Shown: positions 3,204-36,181 of the stretch, one piece after another
Layout of the letters: each line of letters starts with the position of its first letter
How positions within the stretch are numbered: position 1 is the first letter of the stretch
Source of the DNA: a virus
Strand: one strand, 5' to 3'
Length of the DNA: 36,181 nt
IMG/VR virus record: IMGVR_UViG_3300043466_002696
Location: 1 to 36,181 of that record
Program-made: the position numbers and the translations under genes
Notes under the pieces: generated by a model
Database searches by the model: none
Told to the model about the DNA's origin: nothing
Seen by the model: only the letters and a program-made list of their open reading frames with translations

Positions 3204-4343
3204 TTAATAAACATAAACTCCCGTATTTCTATGAACTTTCATTTCCAAAACATATCTGATACCATCAATCAAGTGGTTATCAGAATCTACTGGTTCATCT
3301 AAGTTGTTTCCGTTCTTATCTGTCTTCCAAATATAAGATTGCAACTCCTCCTGTAAATTCTTTGAGAATCCATGAACGAAGAAATTGCTTCTCTTAATCA
3401 TATCGATGCCGTGGAGTATCGAATTCTTTTTTACCGGTTTGCAATTTATCCCCGACCTTCTTAACTCTTCAATTGATTGTGGTGATGCTGAGTCAGCAAT
3501 GAAATCATCAGACAGATTTATCCCCAAGTCTTTTATCTTGTAAATAAAGTCTGTAATGGTCACATTTTTTAAGTAGAGCATTTCCTCACAAAATATATTA
3601 TCGTTGAATTTTGATACCTTTACGAGTGTTGAGGGGTCATTGAAACCGAAGTCAATCCCATACCCCAATAACTTTGCTCCTTGTGGTAGGTCCACATAGA
3701 TTTGTTGGTGAGTAAATACCATCTTGGTTGGAACACCTTTAAGTCCCAAACCAAATATTCTCCATAGGTTGGGGTCTCTCTCTTTTAACTTTTCGATTTC
3801 ATCCACTTGCACTTGAGGTAGAAATGGATTATCCTTATACGTAACCAAATTGTATTGAACATCGTCTTGACCTTCCAAATCGTATATCCACGATTTCCAT
3901 AATGATGGGTTGAGGTCGATAACAACGAGACCACTTGTTCTAAGAATGAGTTGAATATATTCGTCATAGGATACTTCCGTTCCTTCGTTGATGAATAGGT
4001 AGTCACGCTTTCTACCTCTAAGTTTTGTCTCATCATCAACTGAGAACCATTCGATGATATTCGTTCCAAGTTCAAAGTATCCATCAACTGAATGCCATTT
4101 CTCTTGGTCATATACATCGAACATTAAAAGGATTTCTTTGAGGTCTCTAAGGACCGAACCCTTTAAGGCTGGTAATGTTTTTCTAACAATAGATAATGTC
4201 TTGTTATCTTCTTGTAATAACTTATAAACAAAGTAGATTAAGATGTTGTATGTCTTGGATGCTCTTGATGAACCCTGAAATACGTTAACCCTCTTGGTTG
4301 AATCCAACAAGTCCTGAAAGACCTTCGTTGTTTTTATTCTCAT
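3204..4343 (-). CDS. terL: Terminase large subunit (packaging ATPase/nuclease)
   Basis: A 379-aa protein with the two-domain terminase layout. The ATPase domain has a Walker A-like QGSSRASKT near residues 23-31 and a Walker B YLFINEGTE near 114-121, with the catalytic Glu after the hydrophobic strand. The C-terminal RNase H-like nuclease shows its acidic residues in GYGIDFGFNDPST (near 227-238), FIADSAS (near 280-286) and DNHLIDGIRY (near 354-363). The length is at the short end for TerL but complete. It packages phage DNA into proheads using ATP and makes the terminal cuts. It lies in the late leftward operon downstream of the small-subunit candidate and the methyltransferase. The start overlaps the preceding 67-aa gene by 59 bp, but Walker A at residue 23 leaves little room for a later start. 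Confidence 0.94.
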   Translation of the reverse strand: MRIKTTKVFQDLLDSTKRVNVFQGSSRASKTYNILIYFVYKLLQEDNKTLSIVRKTLPALKGSVLRDLKEILLMFDVYDQEKWHSVDGYFELGTNIIEWFSVDDETKLRGRKRDYLFINEGTEVSYDEYIQLILRTSGLVVIDLNPSLWKSWIYDLEGQDDVQYNLVTYKDNPFLPQVQVDEIEKLKERDPNLWRIFGLGLKGVPTKMVFTHQQIYVDLPQGAKLLGYGIDFGFNDPSTLVKVSKFNDNIFCEEMLYLKNVTITDFIYKIKDLGINLSDDFIADSASPQSIEELRRSGINCKPVKKNSILHGIDMIKRSNFFVHGFSKNLQEELQSYIWKTDKNGNNLDEPVDSDNHLIDGIRYVLEMKVHRNTGVYVY

Positions 4344-7085: not shown

Positions 7086-7577
7086 TTATAATATTTTGCT
7101 TCTTTCTTTTCGCAACTTATTGCGATATTTGTTTATGTCTCTTGAAACTGAGTTAGCTGGTATTGTAGTCAATTGTGATGTTTTCTTGATGCTACATCCC
7201 ATCTCTAAATATAGTTCAAACAGTCTGGCATAATACCATTGGTCAGTTGCCTTATCCCTTGAGATAATATCTTTAACCCAATTCAAATCTATTACTGGTT
7301 CTTCGTATTGTGAATCCATTACTTCCACATCATGTAACTCTGAGAAATTATATCTTGTATAAGTTCTTGCATACTGTGATGAATTTGAAAAATAGTTATT
7401 CCTGACAATCCTTGCAAAGAAGAATAACCACTGCGTTTGTGCTATGGTTTCTATATTCTTATTCTTCATGAACTGTTCTATACATAAGTGTAACAAGTCA
7501 TCCACATCTGTATTCCTTGATATCTTTTTGCATATGAGTATTAACTCTTCGTAGTTGTCAACTAACCAATCATTCAC
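7086..7577 (-). CDS. Sigma-factor-like protein (sigma-70 regions 2 and 4), candidate late regulator
   Basis: A 163-aa protein of about the length of an ECF sigma factor. Near residues 23-40, NTDVDDLLHLCIEQFMKN resembles sigma region 2, which starts with 'D.eDl.qe.f'. The segment QWLFFFARIVRNNYFS fits the following helix. The C-terminus (MGCSIKKTSQLTTIPANSVSRDINKYRNKLRK, read in parts) fits a region-4 helix-turn-helix. It overlaps the upstream DNA-binding gene by 4 bp. If functional, it could redirect host RNA polymerase to phage promoters. It could also be a DNA-binding protein that only resembles a sigma factor. Confidence 0.6.
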   Translation of the reverse strand: MNDWLVDNYEELILICKKISRNTDVDDLLHLCIEQFMKNKNIETIAQTQWLFFFARIVRNNYFSNSSQYARTYTRYNFSELHDVEVMDSQYEEPVIDLNWVKDIISRDKATDQWYYARLFELYLEMGCSIKKTSQLTTIPANSVSRDINKYRNKLRKERSKIL

Positions 7578-7822
7578 TCAAATTTTCCTTTAGAAATAAG
7601 TCTTGGATAATATGTGTTACCAACCCATAGGTCATGTTCACAATCGATATATCCTAACTTGTTTAGTCTTACCACTTTGTCTCTTACTTGAGGATATGAA
7701 TAACCCCCTAATAATAAACTGATTTTTGCATTGGTAATGGCTGATTTGTTGCTTGGACTCTTCTTGATGTCTTCGTTGATTACGTTTAGAATCTCCTGGT
7801 CCTTAACATTTAATTTCTTCAT
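7574..7822 (-). CDS. Small DNA-binding protein, winged-helix-like
   Basis: An 82-aa protein. Residues 1-60 form helices ending in YSYPQVRDKVVRLNKLGYID, which reads like the recognition helix and wing of a winged-helix domain: choose site, 'V...V.RL...G.i'. It is the first gene after a promoter-like sequence at 7841-7869. A perfect 9-bp inverted repeat (7822-7830 / 7841-7849) spans its -10 region and start codon. Autoregulation is therefore a reasonable inference. It overlaps the sigma-like gene by 4 bp. Confidence 0.65.
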   Translation of the reverse strand: MKKLNVKDQEILNVINEDIKKSPSNKSAITNAKISLLLGGYSYPQVRDKVVRLNKLGYIDCEHDLWVGNTYYPRLISKGKFE

Positions 7823-7849
7823 AGTATATTCTTTTATATAAATATACTA
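7822..7849. promoter_or_regulatory. 9-bp perfect inverted repeat over promoter and start codon
   Basis: TAGTATATT at 7822-7830 is the exact reverse complement of AATATACTA at 7841-7849, with a 10-bp spacer. It covers the -10 element and the first base of the start codon of the winged-helix gene. It could be an operator or an mRNA hairpin hiding the start. Confidence 0.55.
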
Positions 7850-7869
7850 CACCCCCTATTCTAAGTCAA
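7841..7869 (-). promoter_or_regulatory. Promoter for the packaging/late operon
   Basis: On the minus strand TTGACT (7864-7869), 17 bp, TATATT (7841-7846). Read as the Bacteroidota type it is TTG-N20-TAtaTTTa. It overlaps the stop of the preceding gene and lies about 20 bp before the ATG at 7822. Confidence 0.55.
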
Positions 7870-8154
7870 TAGTGTAGCAACACCCCACTCTTCTTCAAAT
7901 CTAATCTTTAATCTTTTGAGAATATCTGCTCTCTCGAACTCTTCATGTAATTCTGATTCCTGTAATTGGTCTGTAATAACGCTGAAATAATGACCTAACC
8001 TTCTTGGGTCTTCTGTAATTGCTGCTTCTAAATGATGATATAATTCATTTGTTAAATCATTTTTAAACTCTTCTGGATATTTGAAATAATCATAAATATG
8101 AATATCAAATTTCATATCCAGTGTTAAGAATAATTTATGTAAGTGCTTATTCAT
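7861..8154 (-). CDS. Hypothetical protein, 97 aa
   Basis: An unrecognised, mostly helical, acidic protein (HHLEAAITEDPRRLGHYFSV, LKRLKIRFEEEWGVATLL). The open frame could start at a TTG at 8167-8169, but the ATG five codons later (8152-8154) is preferred, giving 97 aa. It is the first gene after the ~260-nt structured leader transcribed from the promoter at 8421-8448. No terminator separates it from the next promoter. Confidence 0.7.
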   Translation of the reverse strand: MNKHLHKLFLTLDMKFDIHIYDYFKYPEEFKNDLTNELYHHLEAAITEDPRRLGHYFSVITDQLQESELHEEFERADILKRLKIRFEEEWGVATLLT

Positions 8155-8184
8155 ATTGATAAATATCAAATCTTACTTACGAGT

Positions 8185-8278
8185 TATGCAGTGAGATGCT
8201 ATCCTGAAGTTCAGGTTAACAACTGCATATACCAGTCTTACTTGACTGAGGATGCAATAAGTTTCAGTGAAAACTTAT
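8185..8278 (-). ncRNA. Structured leader or small RNA: two stem-loops
   Basis: A perfect 8-bp stem pairs 8185-8192 with 8222-8229. It encloses a 6-bp inverted repeat (8203-8208 / 8210-8215). A second perfect 8-bp stem pairs 8257-8264 with 8271-8278 around a 6-nt loop. An 8-bp direct repeat TCTTACTT occurs at 8171 and 8236. The region lies between a strong minus-strand promoter and the gene at 7861-8154, so it would form the 5' leader. It does not fold like a tRNA. Function is unknown. Confidence 0.4.
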
Positions 8279-8291
8279 ATTTGGAAACTAC

Positions 8292-8414
8292 TTAAAGATT
8301 TATCACTAATCTCTCATACCATGTTTCTCCTTTGTGCTCATGTTGACCTATGTATGAATCCCCTGGTAAGTCATTATGATAAGTGCCAGTGTTAAGTTCC
8401 CCCCATCTTATCAA
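8292..8414 (-). CDS. Possible small protein with non-ATG start, or gene remnant
   Basis: The minus strand is open from 8444 to the stop at 8292-8294. Its translation is strikingly protein-like: LIRWGELNTGTYHNDLPGDS, then YIGQHEHKGETWYERLVINL. There is no ATG in frame. The only usual alternative start is TTG at 8412-8414 (40 aa), which lies almost at the predicted transcription start. A single-base change in the A7 run (8438-8444) would extend the frame upstream. It may be a leaderless small gene or the decayed end of an older gene. Confidence 0.3.
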   Translation of the reverse strand: MIRWGELNTGTYHNDLPGDSYIGQHEHKGETWYERLVINL

Positions 8415-8420
8415 GTCATA

Positions 8421-8448
8421 AATATATTCAATTGAATTTTTTTGTCAA
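8421..8448 (-). promoter_or_regulatory. Strong leftward promoter with internal palindrome
   Basis: On the minus strand TTGACA (8443-8448), 16 bp, TATATT (8421-8426), also TTG-N19-TAtaTTTa. A perfect 12-bp palindrome ATTCAATTGAAT (8426-8437) sits between the elements and is a candidate operator. The rightward gene at 8467 starts 19 bp from this promoter. Confidence 0.5.
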
Positions 8449-8459
8449 CTCATTATAAT
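8432..8459 (+). promoter_or_regulatory. Possible rightward promoter overlapping the leftward one
   Basis: On the plus strand TTGAAT (8432-8437), 16 bp, TATAAT (8454-8459), only 7 bp before the ATG at 8467. Transcripts would have almost no leader. It overlaps the 12-bp palindrome. Confidence 0.35.
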
Positions 8460-8466
8460 TATTGAT

Positions 8467-8820
8467 ATGAAAAAAATCTGTAAATCTTGTGGGATTGAAA
8501 AGAACCTAACTTCTTATTTCAAAAACTCAAATAGAAAAGATGGTGTCCAACCAGAATGTAAAATCTGTATGTCAAATACGGTTAAGAACTATAGAAAAAA
8601 AGCTAAAGAAGAAAGGGAGAAATTTGATACCCTAACTTTAAATTTAATCGGTAGTTCCAAAGGGGACTATTGCCAAATGTATTCTTTTATGTCAAAAATC
8701 GGATATAATCCTGAGATGGATATACACCTTCAATTTTGTGAGAAGTGGGGAATTTCGACCTATAAAGAACGAGCAGTGAAACATAAGAATAGATTCACAT
8801 ATGATGATTGTAAGGAATAA
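8467..8820 (+). CDS. Zinc-ribbon protein, 117 aa, the only plus-strand gene
   Basis: Two CxxC pairs (Cys 5/8 and Cys 31/34) frame a motif of the type 'K.C..CG.EK.L..F.KN...KDG....C..C'. This is the treble-clef-like N-terminus often seen with HNH endonucleases and small phage regulators. The following KNYRKKAKEEREK is a basic helix. No HNH catalytic motif is visible in the rest, so nuclease activity is unproven. It is transcribed against all other genes and shares a control region with the leftward leader. It is thus a candidate regulator. Its stop abuts the terminator of the opposing cluster. Confidence 0.75.
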   Translation: MKKICKSCGIEKNLTSYFKNSNRKDGVQPECKICMSNTVKNYRKKAKEEREKFDTLTLNLIGSSKGDYCQMYSFMSKIGYNPEMDIHLQFCEKWGISTYKERAVKHKNRFTYDDCKE

Positions 8821-8850
8821 AAAAACCCCAACCAATTAAGGTCAGGGTTT
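8821..8850 (-). terminator. Terminator of the small-gene cluster
   Basis: On the minus strand an AAACCC...GGGTTT stem with an inner ACC/GGT pairing is followed by a run of T (A run 8819-8825 on the plus strand). It lies between the convergent ends of the plus-strand gene and the minus-strand gene at 8874, and could also stop plus-strand transcripts weakly. Confidence 0.7.
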
Positions 8851-8873
8851 GTCATCATCAAGAAACACACATA

Positions 8874-9308
8874 TTAATTTAATATTGCTGAGAGGATACC
8901 TATTCCAATAATCCAACCGATGACTGTTGGCCATTTAGATGCCTCTTTAACTTCTTGGACCTTACCATTAGGTGAGGTTAATATTCTTGATAGACCATCG
9001 ATAATCTTTTGAATGTGTTCATTGGCGTTTTGAACTTCAACCCAATTGTCAAATGCTCCTAACTTTCTACGAACCTCAATATTGATTTCAGTTCTGTTGT
9101 TAGCATGTTCTGTAAGGTTGATGTCAACATAGACACCAAGAGATAAGAACTCAGACGCTTCCAATGTAAACTGATTAAACATCGGATTCTCTTTTTCCAT
9201 TCTGTATTTCTTATACACTTTGGAAATGTTTCTAACTCCATCTTTTACAAGACTGATGGGGAAGTCAATTGTTACCTTCTTGGTAGGATTTGCGATTGCA
9301 CCTATCAT
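8874..9308 (-). CDS. Hypothetical membrane-anchored protein, 144 aa
   Basis: Unrecognised family. A soluble N-terminal part of ~120 residues (DFPISLVKDGVRNISKVYKK, EASEFLSLGVYVDI, RTEINIEVRRKLGAF) is followed by one predicted transmembrane helix (TVIGWIIGIGILSAIL, residues ~127-143) at the very C-terminus, suggesting a tail-anchored protein facing the cytoplasm. It is the last gene of the small-gene cluster. A TATCTTTG element at 9363-9370 lies ~55 bp upstream. A membrane takeover, exclusion or lysis-related role is possible but not shown. Confidence 0.7.
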   Translation of the reverse strand: MIGAIANPTKKVTIDFPISLVKDGVRNISKVYKKYRMEKENPMFNQFTLEASEFLSLGVYVDINLTEHANNRTEINIEVRRKLGAFDNWVEVQNANEHIQKIIDGLSRILTSPNGKVQEVKEASKWPTVIGWIIGIGILSAILN

Positions 9309-9606: not shown

Positions 9607-9636
9607 CGAAGGTAAGGAAATTATTTATATGACAAA
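9607..9636 (-). promoter_or_regulatory. Promoter for the lipoprotein gene
   Basis: On the minus strand TTTG (9633-9636), 18 bp, TACCTTCG (9607-9614), 16 bp before the ATG. The -7 element differs from consensus by one base. Confidence 0.55.
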
Positions 9637-9640
9637 ATTT

Positions 9641-9877
9641 TTATTTAAATTTTATATAAGAAAAAATTCCATGATACATACTTTTAATGTATTCATAAAG
9701 AACATCTTGTTTTTTTTCTACTTCATTACTGAATTGAGACCATTCTTTGTCGGTCATTTTAACATCAAACATGGATTCAATAACCTTTTTATCACCACCC
9801 TCAATTATTTGATATTTTCTATTCTCACGAATGTAATCAATAATTTCCCAAGTTTTCATTTCATCAATATTTTTCAT
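9641..9877 (-). CDS. Hypothetical protein, 78 aa
   Basis: An unrecognised small protein with alternating charge (starts MKNIDEMKTWEIIDYIRENR; contains KMTDKEWSQFSNEVEKKQDV), predicted helical, with no signal peptide. It lies 6 bp downstream of the 87-aa gene and has no promoter motif of its own, so the two are probably one transcript. Confidence 0.65.
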   Translation of the reverse strand: MKNIDEMKTWEIIDYIRENRKYQIIEGGDKKVIESMFDVKMTDKEWSQFSNEVEKKQDVLYEYIKSMYHGIFSYIKFK

Positions 9878-9883
9878 AGTGTT

Positions 9884-10147
9884 TTATTTTTTAGATTTGA
9901 TAGTCTTTTCTGTGAAGGTATCGTATAACTCAACCTCCAATGATTTACAAAGTCCTGCAAGAGCGAAGTAAGTTTTATTATCCAACTTAGAATCACATAG
10001 TTCTAATGAGTTAGATTCAGTGTCTAATGTAACTTCAGTTCCATTCTTACAATACCATACGATTAGAGAATCCTGTGTAGTGCCAACCTCTTCGTTAATC
10101 CATACAGAGATTTGTGATACTGCCCAAATAATGTTTTGATGTGTCAT
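9884..10147 (-). CDS. Hypothetical protein, 87 aa
   Basis: An unrecognised acidic protein. It has an N-terminal helix (QNIIWAVSQISVWINEEVG), a beta-like middle with the pattern DSLIVWYCKNGTEVTLDTES, and a Lys-rich end. It is the first gene of a two-gene unit with the 78-aa gene, behind the promoter at 10165-10195. Confidence 0.65.
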   Translation of the reverse strand: MTHQNIIWAVSQISVWINEEVGTTQDSLIVWYCKNGTEVTLDTESNSLELCDSKLDNKTYFALAGLCKSLEVELYDTFTEKTIKSKK

Positions 10148-10164
10148 TGTTTCTTAATTTTAAA

Positions 10165-10195
10165 CGAAGTTATGGAATTATTTCCTTCTAACAAA
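10165..10195 (-). promoter_or_regulatory. Promoter for the 87/78-aa gene pair
   Basis: On the minus strand TTTG (10192-10195), 19 bp, TAACTTCG (10165-10172), 17 bp before the ATG at 10147. Confidence 0.55.
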
Positions 10196-10549
10196 ATATT
10201 TTGCAAATATTTTTTGAAACTCTAACGGCATGAATGCTACCTGAGACATAAGATTAAAACCAGTTGTATTGGTTTCCTTAGAATAATTTATCAGATATTG
10301 CAATTCAGGGACTCTAACCTTATTCAAACTGTTAGTCAACTCATACATCGTTTGGAATGACTTAGCCCATTCAACCATCGATTGATACTCATTCGGACTT
10401 TGAATCCTTGATAGTTCTCTTACTCTCACGAAATCAAGAACAATTTCATTGATAGATTCCTCTGAATTTTTTTGTAGTTTATACTTTCTGATTAAATCAG
10501 ATTCTGTCTCGGTTACGAAGACTTTAGCAAATGTAGTTTGTGTGTTCAT
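10178..10549 (-). CDS. Hypothetical protein, 123 aa
   Basis: An unrecognised, mostly helical protein (ETESDLIRKYKLQKNSEESI; YQSMVEWAKSFQTMYELTN) with a basic C-terminal end (KIFAKYFVRRK). It has no membrane segment. A -7 element TATCTTTG lies 22 bp upstream of its ATG. It belongs to the small-gene cluster whose members appear to be individually promoted, typical of phage early or host-interaction genes. Confidence 0.65.
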   Translation of the reverse strand: MNTQTTFAKVFVTETESDLIRKYKLQKNSEESINEIVLDFVRVRELSRIQSPNEYQSMVEWAKSFQTMYELTNSLNKVRVPELQYLINYSKETNTTGFNLMSQVAFMPLEFQKIFAKYFVRRK

Positions 10550-10568
10550 ATTGTGTTTTTTATAATTT

Positions 10569-10778
10569 TTACAAAGATACTGATTCTTTATTTAATTCTT
10601 GAATTTTTTTATACAAAGTTTCTGCTCCAAGTTTAACTCCTTCCCAATGTAATCTGTCATATTCAGATTCTTCATATGAGATTTTTTTATCACATCTGAG
10701 ATTAAAACTTTCTTCTAAAGCATCATCGGCTTTCATTTGGATGGTCAAATACAAGTTGTAGATTTCTAATAGTTTCAT
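10569..10778 (-). CDS. Hypothetical protein, 69 aa
   Basis: An unrecognised helical protein (EIYNLYLTIQMKADDALEES; KLGAETLYKKIQELNKES), net acidic, with possible coiled-coil character. It has its own consensus promoter at 10800-10830. Its spacer to the next gene carries the -7 element for that gene. Confidence 0.6.
   Translation of the reverse strand: MKLLEIYNLYLTIQMKADDALEESFNLRCDKKISYEESEYDRLHWEGVKLGAETLYKKIQELNKESVSL
10572..10579 (-). promoter_or_regulatory. -7 element TATCTTTG before the 123-aa gene
   Basis: Exact match to TAnnTTTG. The -33 box is poor (TTC about 20 bp upstream). The surrounding 30 bp is nearly the same as the promoter region at 10800, suggesting a duplicated control element. 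Confidence 0.4.
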
Positions 10779-10799
10779 AATTGTGTTTTTTAATTTTTA

Positions 10800-10830
10800 C
10801 AAAGATACTGATTATTCTGATTCCACCAAA
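10800..10830 (-). promoter_or_regulatory. Consensus promoter for the 69-aa gene
   Basis: On the minus strand TTTG (10827-10830), 19 bp, TATCTTTG (10800-10807), 22 bp before the ATG at 10778. It lies partly within the 3' end of the preceding gene. Confidence 0.65.
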
Positions 10831-11135
10831 TCTATTTCAAAATCATTTACATAAAGACCTTGTTCTTGAACATCATTAAATCCACCCTGTTCGATAACTT
10901 TCTTAATCATGTATTGAATCTCTGACCAATTCTCTTGAACACTTTCTTCAGTATAACCCCACATAGATGCAATCTGTTTGTAGTCATACCAGTTTGGAAT
11001 GATAAAATCTTCACGTTGATACAGATGTAACATAACTTCTGCTGGTCCGAATTTATCAATCATCTCGTTGATGAGAGAATGGTTTTCAAAATAATTGTCG
11101 ATGTTGACTTTTGTTAATGGTAATGCGTTTGACAT
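10812..11135 (-). CDS. Hypothetical protein, 107 aa
   Basis: An unrecognised acidic protein. The stretch NWYDYKQIASMWGYTEESVQ resembles a helix-turn-helix (residues ~48-67), followed by a helix NWSEIQYMIKKVIEQ. It could be a small DNA-binding regulator, with low certainty. It has a consensus promoter of its own at 11156-11186, immediately after the terminator of the preceding gene pair. Confidence 0.68.
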   Translation of the reverse strand: MSNALPLTKVNIDNYFENHSLINEMIDKFGPAEVMLHLYQREDFIIPNWYDYKQIASMWGYTEESVQENWSEIQYMIKKVIEQGGFNDVQEQGLYVNDFEIDLVESE

Positions 11136-11155
11136 ATAGTGTGTTGTTTAGACAA

Positions 11156-11186
11156 CAAAGATATGCAGATATAATTTACTGGCAAA
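11156..11186 (-). promoter_or_regulatory. Consensus promoter for the 107-aa gene
   Basis: On the minus strand TTTG (11183-11186), 19 bp, TATCTTTG (11156-11163), 20 bp before the ATG at 11135. This is the clearest example of the promoter class in the window. Confidence 0.7.
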
Positions 11187-26798: not shown

Positions 26799-26814
26799 TT
26801 ATTATAAATATTTT

Positions 26815-33567: not shown

Positions 33568-33642
33568 TTTAAGTTTTTATTTATATTGTATTCCACAATC
33601 CTGTTTCACTATCCCAATTTGTTGAGTTGGTATTCCATAGTT
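33568..33642. repeat. Exact 75-bp repeat, copy 2 (other copy 1-75)
   Basis: This is the 3' end of the 860-aa gene plus spacer, identical to the first 75 bases of the window. Confidence 0.95.
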
Positions 33643-36163
33643 TACCACCTCCTCCACCACTCGGAGTTACGGTTTGAGTTGGAGTTGGTGTTGGTGATGG
33701 ACAAGGTCCAATTGCAATTGCAGACCCAGCACCATCATAAGTGAATGTCCCAAACTTACCACATAATTCTGTTGTATCTGAACCTGGTAAGAAAATAGTT
33801 CCTGGTGTTCCATCACAGTTTATCCAATAAAAATTAGAACCAAAACCACCTGCACCCAAAGAATATAAAGAACATTCTCCACTTGTCTCTGAAGGTGTTT
33901 GTGTTGGTGTTAATGTAGGAGTAATCGATGGGGTATTTGTTACCGTTGGTGTTGGAGTTACACTACTTGTTGGAGTTTGTGTAGGAGTCTCTGTAACTGT
34001 TGTTGTAATTGTTGGAGTTTGTGTAGGTGTATCTGTAACCGTTGGTGTAGGTGTCTCTGTTGGTGTTTCTGTAACCGTAGGAGTTACCGTTGGTGTTTGT
34101 GTTGGGGTTTCAGTTACGGTTGGAGTTGGAGTCTCAGATGATGTTGGAGTTATTGTTGTTGTAACCGTAGGTGTTATTGTTGGAGTGATTGAAGGTGTTG
34201 GTGTGATGAATGATTCAAATGCTGCATCACATCTATCAACAGGAGTCATTACTTCAATCTTTAAAGTTGCAGACCAACCTCCTACATAATCAGCATATTT
34301 TTCTAAGAACGGAGAACACACAATTGGATTATTCAAATAATAATCTTTATTAAAATTACCTAATGCATCTGTAACTGATAATCTAAACTGACTTATGATA
34401 TCATCTAATATTTGGTTTGTATCTGATAACACATCGGTTTGATTTGATAAATCTTCTTCAAGAATATCCATTACAATAACCAAAAATTCATAATTGGTAT
34501 ATTGCATGTTCTGACTAACATTTTGAGGAACAACATATAACAATGGATATACTGGACTATTATCGTTTATATTCTCAGACTTTAATACTGATTCAATATA
34601 GTATGCAAGGTCTTGTAATTGTCCAAACCCAAATGAGTTTAATTGTTTGTGATGGTCAGATAACAATAAGAAATCATCATGGAATGTTTTGAAGTTAATC
34701 CACTCATGCATGATTGGTGTTCCAGTAAAAGTATTATATGCTGCAGCACAACGATTTAATGGTGTCATTGTTTTAATCTTCAACTCACAGTTCCAACCAT
34801 TCGTTAGGTCCTGTTTCTTTTCCATAAACGGAATAAGAGTTAAAGTTTCATCTACAAAATACTTATCGTAGAAGTTTCCAAATTCGGCGGTTGTTGAATA
34901 TCTATATTGACTAATTACATCTTGTAATATTTGTAGTGTGTCAGATAAGGTGTCAACTTGATTATCTAAATCTCTTTCAACAATATCCATCATAAGACAA
35001 TTGAAATTCCATGTCTTGTAATGTAGTTCATTCACAATCTTTGATGGGACAACATAGAACAATGGATATACTGGACTGTTGTATTCAGGGTTTGTTCCCT
35101 TCAATATTTGTTCGGTCCAATAAGATATTTGGTCAACATTACCAAGTCCAAATGAATTGATTTGTTTGTGTTTACTCGCCATGAGGTTGAAGTCATTCGC
35201 AAGTGTTCTGAAATTGATTTCTTTTGGTGTCTCAGATGGTGTTGGTTGTGGAACTGGTGATGAAGTATTGGTTGGAGTTATTGACGGAGTATTTGTTATT
35301 GTGGGAGTGACAGTTGGAGTCTGTGTATTTGTTGGGGTAACAGTGGGAGTTTGTGTATTGGTAGGTGTTTGAGTGGGTGTATCTGTTATCGTTGGAGTTG
35401 GGGTCGGTGTAATATTCGGTGCATCATATCTGTCAATTAGATAATCGAACATTTCAGTTAGTTCTGTTGAATTTAACTTTTTGTTAAACCAAAATTGTTC
35501 TGCCATGTTCCCTCTAAAATTGCTAGAAACAACAATACCAGGATTTAATACTGGTGGAACAGATGTGAATGTTGTTGAGTTGGAATTAACTAATGTATCG
35601 TTAATCCATAATTCAATCCTATATAATGGTCCATCTTGATAACATCTGAATGCTTGGTTAATCCAAGTATTTGCACTCAGAGTTTGACTCATGTTTAAGA
35701 ATCCACTTGAGGTATTAGGGTCTGCCCAAACATTGTATTCTATTGTTGACCCTTGTATCTTATTTTGAAACCATCTATATGGGACTGTTGTTCCATTATA
35801 CAATAAACCATTGATACCACCACCCGCATCAGAAGAACAAATAACATCATCGGATGCTGACCCTGTGAAAATATATCTTGAAAAAACTGTGAAATCAGAA
35901 GTTCCTGAATATTGACCATTCAGTGATGACATCAAGGAAACTCCACCATTTGGAGAAAAAATAGTTCCTCCACTAAAGTTCGGTGTTGTTGCAGAATAAA
36001 TTCCATTTTGGAAACCAACTCTACTTGATGGGTCTGTTTGGAAATATGTTGTTGCATTTAGTCCATCAATTACACTCAATATTTGATTTCCTGATAAATT
36101 CAGAAATGCTGGATTACTGTATTGATTCCACCATGTTAAACCTGATATACTAATTGGGGTCAT
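33581..36163 (-). CDS. Giant tail/adhesin protein, paralogue of the 806-aa protein, with extra Cys module
   Basis: An 860-aa protein with the same plan as the gene at 14-2434: LamG-like domain (~1-247), Thr-Pro linker (~248-309), two ~165-aa domains (~312-480 and ~485-652), Thr-Pro linker (~653-756), then an inserted Cys module (CSLYSLGAGGFGSNFYWINC... CPSP, ~757-815), and the same C-terminal LWNTNSTNWDSETGLWNT tag. The first copy of the domain resembles the first copy in the paralogue more than its own second copy, and likewise for the second. Domain duplication therefore came before gene duplication. Interior DNA is strongly diverged while the two ends are identical (repeats at 33568-33642 and 36127-36181). 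Function as a host-binding tail appendage is inferred. Confidence 0.85.
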   Translation of the reverse strand: MTPISISGLTWWNQYSNPAFLNLSGNQILSVIDGLNATTYFQTDPSSRVGFQNGIYSATTPNFSGGTIFSPNGGVSLMSSLNGQYSGTSDFTVFSRYIFTGSASDDVICSSDAGGGINGLLYNGTTVPYRWFQNKIQGSTIEYNVWADPNTSSGFLNMSQTLSANTWINQAFRCYQDGPLYRIELWINDTLVNSNSTTFTSVPPVLNPGIVVSSNFRGNMAEQFWFNKKLNSTELTEMFDYLIDRYDAPNITPTPTPTITDTPTQTPTNTQTPTVTPTNTQTPTVTPTITNTPSITPTNTSSPVPQPTPSETPKEINFRTLANDFNLMASKHKQINSFGLGNVDQISYWTEQILKGTNPEYNSPVYPLFYVVPSKIVNELHYKTWNFNCLMMDIVERDLDNQVDTLSDTLQILQDVISQYRYSTTAEFGNFYDKYFVDETLTLIPFMEKKQDLTNGWNCELKIKTMTPLNRCAAAYNTFTGTPIMHEWINFKTFHDDFLLLSDHHKQLNSFGFGQLQDLAYYIESVLKSENINDNSPVYPLLYVVPQNVSQNMQYTNYEFLVIVMDILEEDLSNQTDVLSDTNQILDDIISQFRLSVTDALGNFNKDYYLNNPIVCSPFLEKYADYVGGWSATLKIEVMTPVDRCDAAFESFITPTPSITPTITPTVTTTITPTSSETPTPTVTETPTQTPTVTPTVTETPTETPTPTVTDTPTQTPTITTTVTETPTQTPTSSVTPTPTVTNTPSITPTLTPTQTPSETSGECSLYSLGAGGFGSNFYWINCDGTPGTIFLPGSDTTELCGKFGTFTYDGAGSAIAIGPCPSPTPTPTQTVTPSGGGGGKLWNTNSTNWDSETGLWNTI
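33890..34205 (-). repeat. Thr-Pro repeat tract in the 860-aa gene (second linker)
   Basis: T-P-T-x codon repeats. Bases 34077-34129 match 189-241 exactly, and 34050-34087 match 294-331 exactly. Confidence 0.9.
35235..35420 (-). repeat. Thr-Pro repeat tract in the 860-aa gene (first linker)
   Basis: T-P-T-x codon repeats between the LamG-like domain and the first ~165-aa domain. Confidence 0.9.
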
Positions 36164-36181
36164 TATCTATTTTTAATTTTG
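36127..36181. repeat. Exact 55-bp repeat, copy 2, at the window end
   Basis: It covers the start region of the 860-aa gene and 18 bases upstream, which still spell the SKIKNR-stop tail of the gene at 2434-3182. It ends exactly at the last base of the window. Confidence 0.95.

Follow-up and report, generated by a model that had tools for sequence, protein, structure and literature searches.

A conserved divergent promoter with an exchangeable slot for a structured RNA in a putative Bacteroidota phage

A compact intergenic region in a 36,181-base virus record (IMGVR_UViG_3300043466_002696, all of which was analysed and is referred to here as the window) raises the question of why two overlapping promoters, a palindrome and a structured leader lie between a rightward gene and a leftward operon that includes the terminase genes. 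The initial annotation took the region for a mutually exclusive switch between the plus-strand protein and that operon. Among the best matches listed, the window terminase has 33-35% identity to terminases of Bacteroides, Parabacteroides and Flavobacterium phages, and TAnnTT[TC]G boxes precede several genes; on these two grounds we infer that the host belongs to the Bacteroidota. The order in the leftward operon is p97-wHTH-sigma-TerS-TerL, and the elements around the control region are as follows.

7086 to 7577, minus strand: 163-aa ECF-sigma-like protein (PHROG sigma factor, E 0.015)
7574 to 7822, minus strand: wHTH, an 82-aa winged-helix-like protein, conserved in relatives (LexA_DNA_bind E 0.021, under the curated cut-off)
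7861 to 8154, minus strand: p97, 97 aa, leading protein gene of the leftward operon, its position kept in relatives
8467 to 8820, plus strand: Zr, 117 aa, with an N-terminal Cys4 zinc-binding part and a C-terminal GYNPEMDIH motif, with homologues in relatives
8823 to 8850, minus strand: predicted intrinsic terminator, 3' of Zr, for leftward transcripts from the right-hand genes

Profile searches gave no family match for p97. Zr is, as judged from the ORF list, the only credible plus-strand gene, as had been annotated, and the zinc-binding part is borne out by C5, C8, C31 and C34, which like GYNPEMDIH are invariant in all 4 aligned homologues. Zr matches an Endonuclease VII-like PHROG (E 1.6e-9; best stretch at profile positions 62-116 of 271), and the best Foldseek match of a low-confidence structure model is the zinc part of Hpy99I (E 0.16). 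The Zr homologue of L032 (start near 4083, minus strand) is without the zinc-ribbon part and keeps the C-terminal domain and the box before the start. The terminator has 81% DNA identity across 48-52 nt in L003-L007, and would shield the control region from leftward transcription of the right-hand genes. At the ends of the contig a paralogous pair of tail-type genes shares repeats (1-118 with 33568-33685, and 2398-2452 with 36127-36181) within which 55 bp are identical, and as the repeats are common to both ends the contig may end inside one.

The control region itself has three elements.

8418 to 8448, minus strand: leftward promoter, TTGACA at 8448-8443, N16 and TATATTTAT at 8426-8418 (consensus match)
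8432 to 8462, plus strand: rightward promoter, TTGAAT at 8432-8437 and TATAATTAT at 8454-8462, 4 nt from the ATG (consensus match)
8426 to 8437, no strand assigned: 12-bp palindrome ATTCAATTGAAT, in the window only

Both promoters are as first described, TTGACA-N16-TATATT (hexamer at 8426-8421) having 11 of 12 consensus matches and TTGAAT-N16-TATAAT (8454-8459) having 10 of 12, with 7 bp between the TATAAT and the ATG at 8467. The consensus in question, TTGACA-N16..18-TATAAT, is of E. coli type; PMC7366714 describes sigma-70 motifs as absent from promoters of Bacteroidota. The consensus scan alone is weak, as it finds 31 promoter-like sites where shuffled sequence gives 24.7 +/- 4.3, and it is conservation in relatives, of the box pair as described here and of the leader as described below (87-88% identity, covarying helices), that puts promoters and leader beyond chance. 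Starting from homologues of Zr and the sigma-like protein, we reached contigs that share the divergent layout, with Zr in one direction and p97, the winged-helix-like and the sigma-like proteins in the other. In 9 of 11 distinct loci TATATTTAT-type boxes stand face to face (pattern ATAA[AG]TATA-N24..30-box) with a gap that is always 26-28 bp, while the dinucleotide shuffles that served as control gave none; L032 and L047 are near misses as judged by eye. The divergent control region is thus genuine. However, L087, a distant relative found after this count, is a counter-example with two boxes 50 bp apart and without overlap, so that promoter overlap is not universal. A leftward -35 (TTGA[CT]N or TTTACA, with TTGATA counted) was found by regular expression 16-17 nt from TATA[CT]TTAT in 11 of 12 loci, L087 being the only one in which it found none.

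We use the 9-mer TATATTTAT (8426-8418 on the minus strand, and as TATAATTAT at 8454-8462 on the plus strand), which is a better definition of the -10 element for this phage. As the rightward box lies 4 nt before the start codon of Zr, the Zr mRNA should be nearly leaderless. In this phage and those closest to it, the overlap of the -35 regions makes mutual exclusion plausible. In the case of the palindrome, ATTCAATTGAAT does exist at 8426-8437, but its suggested role as an operator is not borne out, since the 10 other loci of the 11 are without it.

The boxes fall into two classes in the window. Five of the nine minus-strand ATATTTAT sites lie at most 45 nt upstream of a start codon, against about 0.4 expected (fraction 0.0485), and a sixth is the leftward promoter itself. 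Minus-strand ATATTTAT boxes 4-8 nt before start codons are seen at 26812, 21861, 8167 and 3199. The class also precedes several late or structural genes, and the divergent region uses it on both sides. We suggest ATATTTAT boxes as a candidate for a phage-specific promoter class with near-leaderless mRNAs, and since both divergent promoters share this class both sides may be switched on together. One further box of this kind concerns p97.

8159 to 8167, minus strand: GATATTTAT box, a possible separate p97 promoter, 4 nt before the p97 ATG

A box-type promoter sits directly before p97 in the window and in L032, and in L049, L046 and L048 there is no strict match to the p97 box.

The other class, TA..TT[TC]G[TC] before start codons, is confined in the window to 9.6-11.2 kb. 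A cluster of small genes lies at 9614-11163 on the minus strand, five of them with TAnnTT[TC]G boxes 24-30 nt upstream. The boxes of this cluster are probably early promoters for a host sigma factor. Relatives have a broadly similar split of the two classes, with some host-like matches elsewhere. PMC7366714 gives TAnnTTTG as the -7 element of sigma-ABfr promoters in Bacteroidota, and reports that only about 3.7% of 5' UTRs are shorter than 10 nt in B. thetaiotaomicron. Perfect TAnnTTTG boxes occur at 10.6-11.2 kb of the window, and the early-type genes at 9.6-11.2 kb resemble genes with sigma-ABfr promoters in their TAnnTT[TC]G boxes, 24-30 nt upstream of the start codons. In contrast the divergent pair has TATATTTAT-type boxes, the final G being missing from both the leftward TATATTTAT and the rightward TATAATTAT, and these are 4 nt from the Zr and p97 starts, nearly leaderless.

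The operon may itself supply a reader for the ATATTTAT class. The 163-aa protein has no Pfam match in the window, and its Foldseek best matches, from a low-confidence model (pLDDT 59), are mostly ECF sigma factors with E at least 0.73; the homologue in L003 matches Sigma70_r4_2 at E 0.08. It is thus weakly ECF-sigma-like, and a candidate for the protein that reads these promoters.

The first element past the leftward promoter is a structured RNA, which we call RNA A.

8165 to 8412, minus strand: RNA A (about 248 nt), structured and non-coding, from conservation and covariation
8179 to 8406, minus strand: closing helix P1 (8406-8402 with 8183-8179), paired in all four sequences (alignment columns 8-12/241-245)
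8294 to 8314, minus strand: hairpin P3b (8314-8308 with 8300-8294), 3 of 7 pairs double-changed and all cells paired
8256 to 8279, minus strand: hairpin P3c of the consensus fold, which holds the second 8-bp stem
8185 to 8229, minus strand: hairpin P5, the first 8-bp stem, from the fold and relatives

RNA A of the window has 87-88% nucleotide identity to that of L032, L049 and L046/L009, which are 94-98% identical among themselves, whereas in the same comparison the genes for p97, wHTH, the sigma-like protein, a 96-aa protein and Zr have 50-61% (35-56% at third codon positions) and TerS 48-51%. The conserved block begins about 6 nt past the leftward -10 box and decays inside p97. Constraint need not be the cause of the high identity, which could also come from recent transfer. 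The two perfect 8-bp stems that had been noted (8185-8192/8222-8229 and 8257-8264/8271-8278) are both present, and covariation in relatives, which had been proposed as a check on the leader, gave 6 double-changed pairs against 1.8 in shuffled alignments, with none of 500 shuffles reaching 6. As three of the four known sequences are 94-98% alike, most of this covariation comes from comparing the window with those three, and P1, being invariant, has none. The RNAalifold consensus has 68 pairs, with 96% of cells able to pair, a percentage that leans towards the fold because the fold was picked from the same alignment. Against column shuffles the alignment fold has a z of -2.61 for the transcribed strand but -0.87 for the antisense, while the window leader alone folds no better than its shuffles (z -1.17 for 8155-8420 and -1.32 for 8165-8412, both minus strand). 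P5 gives a compensatory change, the 8-bp TATGCAGT/ACTGCATA of the window being a 9-bp TATGTATGT/ACATACATA in the three relatives. A possible pseudoknot, TCATAC/GTATGA, is invariant in all four sequences. These alignments show RNA A to be conserved as RNA rather than as protein, and structured on the transcribed strand. The conservation that the initial annotation looked for thus holds for the stems, kept as RNA structure, but not for the palindrome, found in 1 of 11 loci.

Searches of databases for RNA A were negative. Rfam 15 gave no match in the whole window at gathering thresholds, no credible match across RNA A at E<=10 over 7700-9000, and none across the slot described below at E<=1 in L032, L046, L048 and L049; ARAGORN found no tRNA or tmRNA gene in the window or in 8 slot-bearing loci. 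Our RNA A model, R1, was run over 60 loci. Three pattern scans of viral contigs returned the same three contigs each, and a scan of genome contigs gave 28 stretches, none matched by R1. Matches in phage records were short and weak, covering at most 16% of the query, and likewise in plasmids. Among the 395 genomes that belong to the class of G003 there was a single weak match by DNA (E 4e-4, likely chance) and none with R1, for which 5 candidates per genome were scored with no positive control among the genomes. Among the papers listed by literature searches none was seen to describe RNA A or such a slot, and this is not proof that RNA A is undescribed. PMC8040213 gives candidate structured RNAs near phage domains, one of them in Bacteroidetes.

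RNA A is not the only content of its position. The slot from the promoter to p97 is readable in 17 contigs. RNA A occupies it in 4, a second structured RNA (RNA B) in 2 and a DUF6291-type protein in 9; of the remaining two contigs, one has a helix-turn-helix-like protein (weak HTH_36 match) and the other non-coding DNA that is unassigned. The tally excludes contigs cut inside the slot or without it (L006, L007, L038, L040, L041, L045, L050, L051), the distant sigma matches L053 and L054, and contigs matched by Zr only (L008, L012-L025, L027-L031). The DUF6291 calls are from Pfam, above the cut-off in L004 and L037 and below it in L039, and for the rest from tblastn to the L004 protein. An obligate leader would be present wherever the p97 operon is, and the 4 of 17 contigs with RNA A are not in keeping with this. 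The non-coding DNA, at 4805-4953 of L002, has two copies of GGGGGG(G)TAAAC and is perhaps a third type of RNA; it has no significant similarity to RNA A or RNA B.

Two pairs of contigs are particularly informative on exchange. The p97 proteins of L048 and L049 are identical, and the two contigs have 91% DNA identity from p97 on and 85% before the slot through the promoter, and yet the L049 slot holds RNA A and that of L048 holds the unrelated RNA B and a 53-aa ORF. In L037 and L034 the DNA to either side of the slot is 96% identical, but the DUF6291-type genes in the slot fail to align over most of their length. Near-identical flanks with differing slots show exchange of the content among phages that are otherwise almost alike, and by these alignments the breakpoints are at the start site of transcription and at the p97 start codon.

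L048 4008-4252 and L087 6697-6965, slot position: RNA B, second structured RNA, from covariation

RNA B is 75% identical in L048 and the more distant L087, in the same place, and between these two sequences 11 of 51 pairs are changed on both sides with all pairs kept; the alignment fold has a z of -8.0 for the transcribed strand, against -5.3 for the opposite one. Its first 120 nt or so have a cloverleaf-like junction fold that is not recognised as tRNA. RNA B has no Rfam match, and no significant similarity to RNA A that would point to a common origin (z -0.5 to 1.85). The RNA B model, R2, found only L048 and L087 among 36 loci, and one weak match (24 bits) in the 395 genomes.

Several explanations have to be weighed. 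RNA A may be a cis leader (riboswitch, protein-binding or attenuator) of the p97-wHTH-sigma-TerS-TerL operon, with other phages of the clade using other controls, and we give this a modest chance of being correct. It would suit an RNA of complex structure that is the first transcribed element and stops about 10 nt short of the p97 ATG with no terminator in between, but promoter and operon persist without it, L048 having RNA B, the 53-aa ORF and an identical p97; 9 of the 17 readable slots hold DUF6291-type proteins; and in the window and L032 p97 has a box-type promoter directly before it. The switch of the initial annotation, in which the palindrome would serve as an operator and the stem-loops would add accessory structure to the leader, is in our view unlikely. 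The overlap at fixed spacing is indeed conserved in close relatives, as a switch between Zr and the leftward operon would lead one to expect. However the idea of two exclusive programmes is weakened by the two promoters being of one box class, by the 50 bp between the boxes of L087, and by the persistence of the promoter region in L032 where Zr has no zinc ribbon, and the palindrome is in only one locus of 11. What is likely to remain of the switch is competition between two overlapping promoters.

It is improbable that the conserved block is a signal at the DNA level, such as a packaging site, replication origin or recombination site. The block is upstream of the terminase genes and adjoins swappable DNA, and its hairpins could form in DNA, but the transcribed strand gives the stronger signal of structure and the block starts at the predicted transcription start. 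In addition the ORF that does best against TerS of the window has a score of only 34-40 in the RNA A carriers L032, L049 and L046, but 538-556 in L034, L035, L039 and L042, which are without the RNA; presence of RNA A is thus independent of the type of TerS, which speaks against a packaging role. We also considered and rejected a small protein gene in the leader, either a 50-codon open frame at 8292-8444 on the minus strand or an 11-codon frame within it, which we regard as scarcely credible. The 50-codon frame looked real by tblastn, which finds similar peptides in L009/L046, L032 and L049 (71-80% over 25-38 aa), but substitutions fall 6/7/6 by codon position with no third-position bias, 12 of the 13 changed codons (a stop included) are non-synonymous and 1 is synonymous, there is an in-frame stop in L032 and by eye also in L049, and L046 has a frameshift.

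The explanation that we prefer, and consider probable, is a conserved divergent promoter with a slot behind the leftward start, in which RNA A is exchangeable and most likely trans-acting cargo. On this reading the site resembles a cargo bay more than it does a plain on/off switch. Content that changes behind a conserved promoter, with two unrelated structured RNAs among it, is easier to reconcile with cargo than with a leader that the operon needs, and since there are phages that keep the operon without RNA A it would be cargo and not a required cis leader. RNA A would be transcribed from the leftward TTGACA/TATATTTAT promoter, with a start near 8412, and would act, most likely in trans, on a target in host or phage that changes slowly, while p97 could start from its own GATATTTAT box. 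The overlapping -35 regions would admit one RNA polymerase at a time, so that Zr and the leftward unit would compete, and the competing promoters, being of one class, may be read by the operon's own ECF-like sigma. A trans-acting product would be the simplest account of the slot. More tentatively, and with well under an even chance by our estimate, the slot RNAs (RNA A, RNA B and perhaps more) and the small proteins (DUF6291-type and HTH-type) may be interchangeable solutions to one task, swapped by recombination, such as neutralising host defence or recruiting host machinery. If that is true, these RNAs and proteins are functional equivalents exchanged by recombination.

The locus thus offers two structured RNA families that are absent from Rfam 15 and whose promoters and boundaries are defined. 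They are from phages that are uncultured and have an inferred Bacteroidota host, a setting in which little is known of phage RNA biology. With RNA A, RNA B, DUF6291 protein and HTH protein swapped naturally at one site in near-identical phages, there is a ready comparison for the function of the cargo, and there is a testable second promoter class for these phages together with a candidate phage sigma factor.

With regard to known systems, RNA A resembles bacterial riboswitches and protein-binding leaders in being structured and in its predicted place at the 5' end of the transcript of an operon, but unlike these it is dispensed with in sister phages that retain the operon, and unrelated RNAs or protein genes replace it. 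Lambda-type regulatory regions have promoters that stand back to back, with elements that overlap, between genes read in opposite directions. The present locus resembles them in this arrangement, and differs in being without a conserved operator palindrome and in having both promoters of one class. The phi29 pRNA is also a phage non-coding RNA, which RNA A resembles by its location near packaging genes, but the presence of RNA A is independent of terminase type. GOLLD and ROOL are large structured RNAs (Rfam; PMC12286853). Like RNA A they are non-coding RNAs carried by phages, and their function is unsettled. RNA A and RNA B differ from them in being about 250 nt long, in matching no Rfam model, and in occupying an exchangeable slot behind a conserved divergent promoter.
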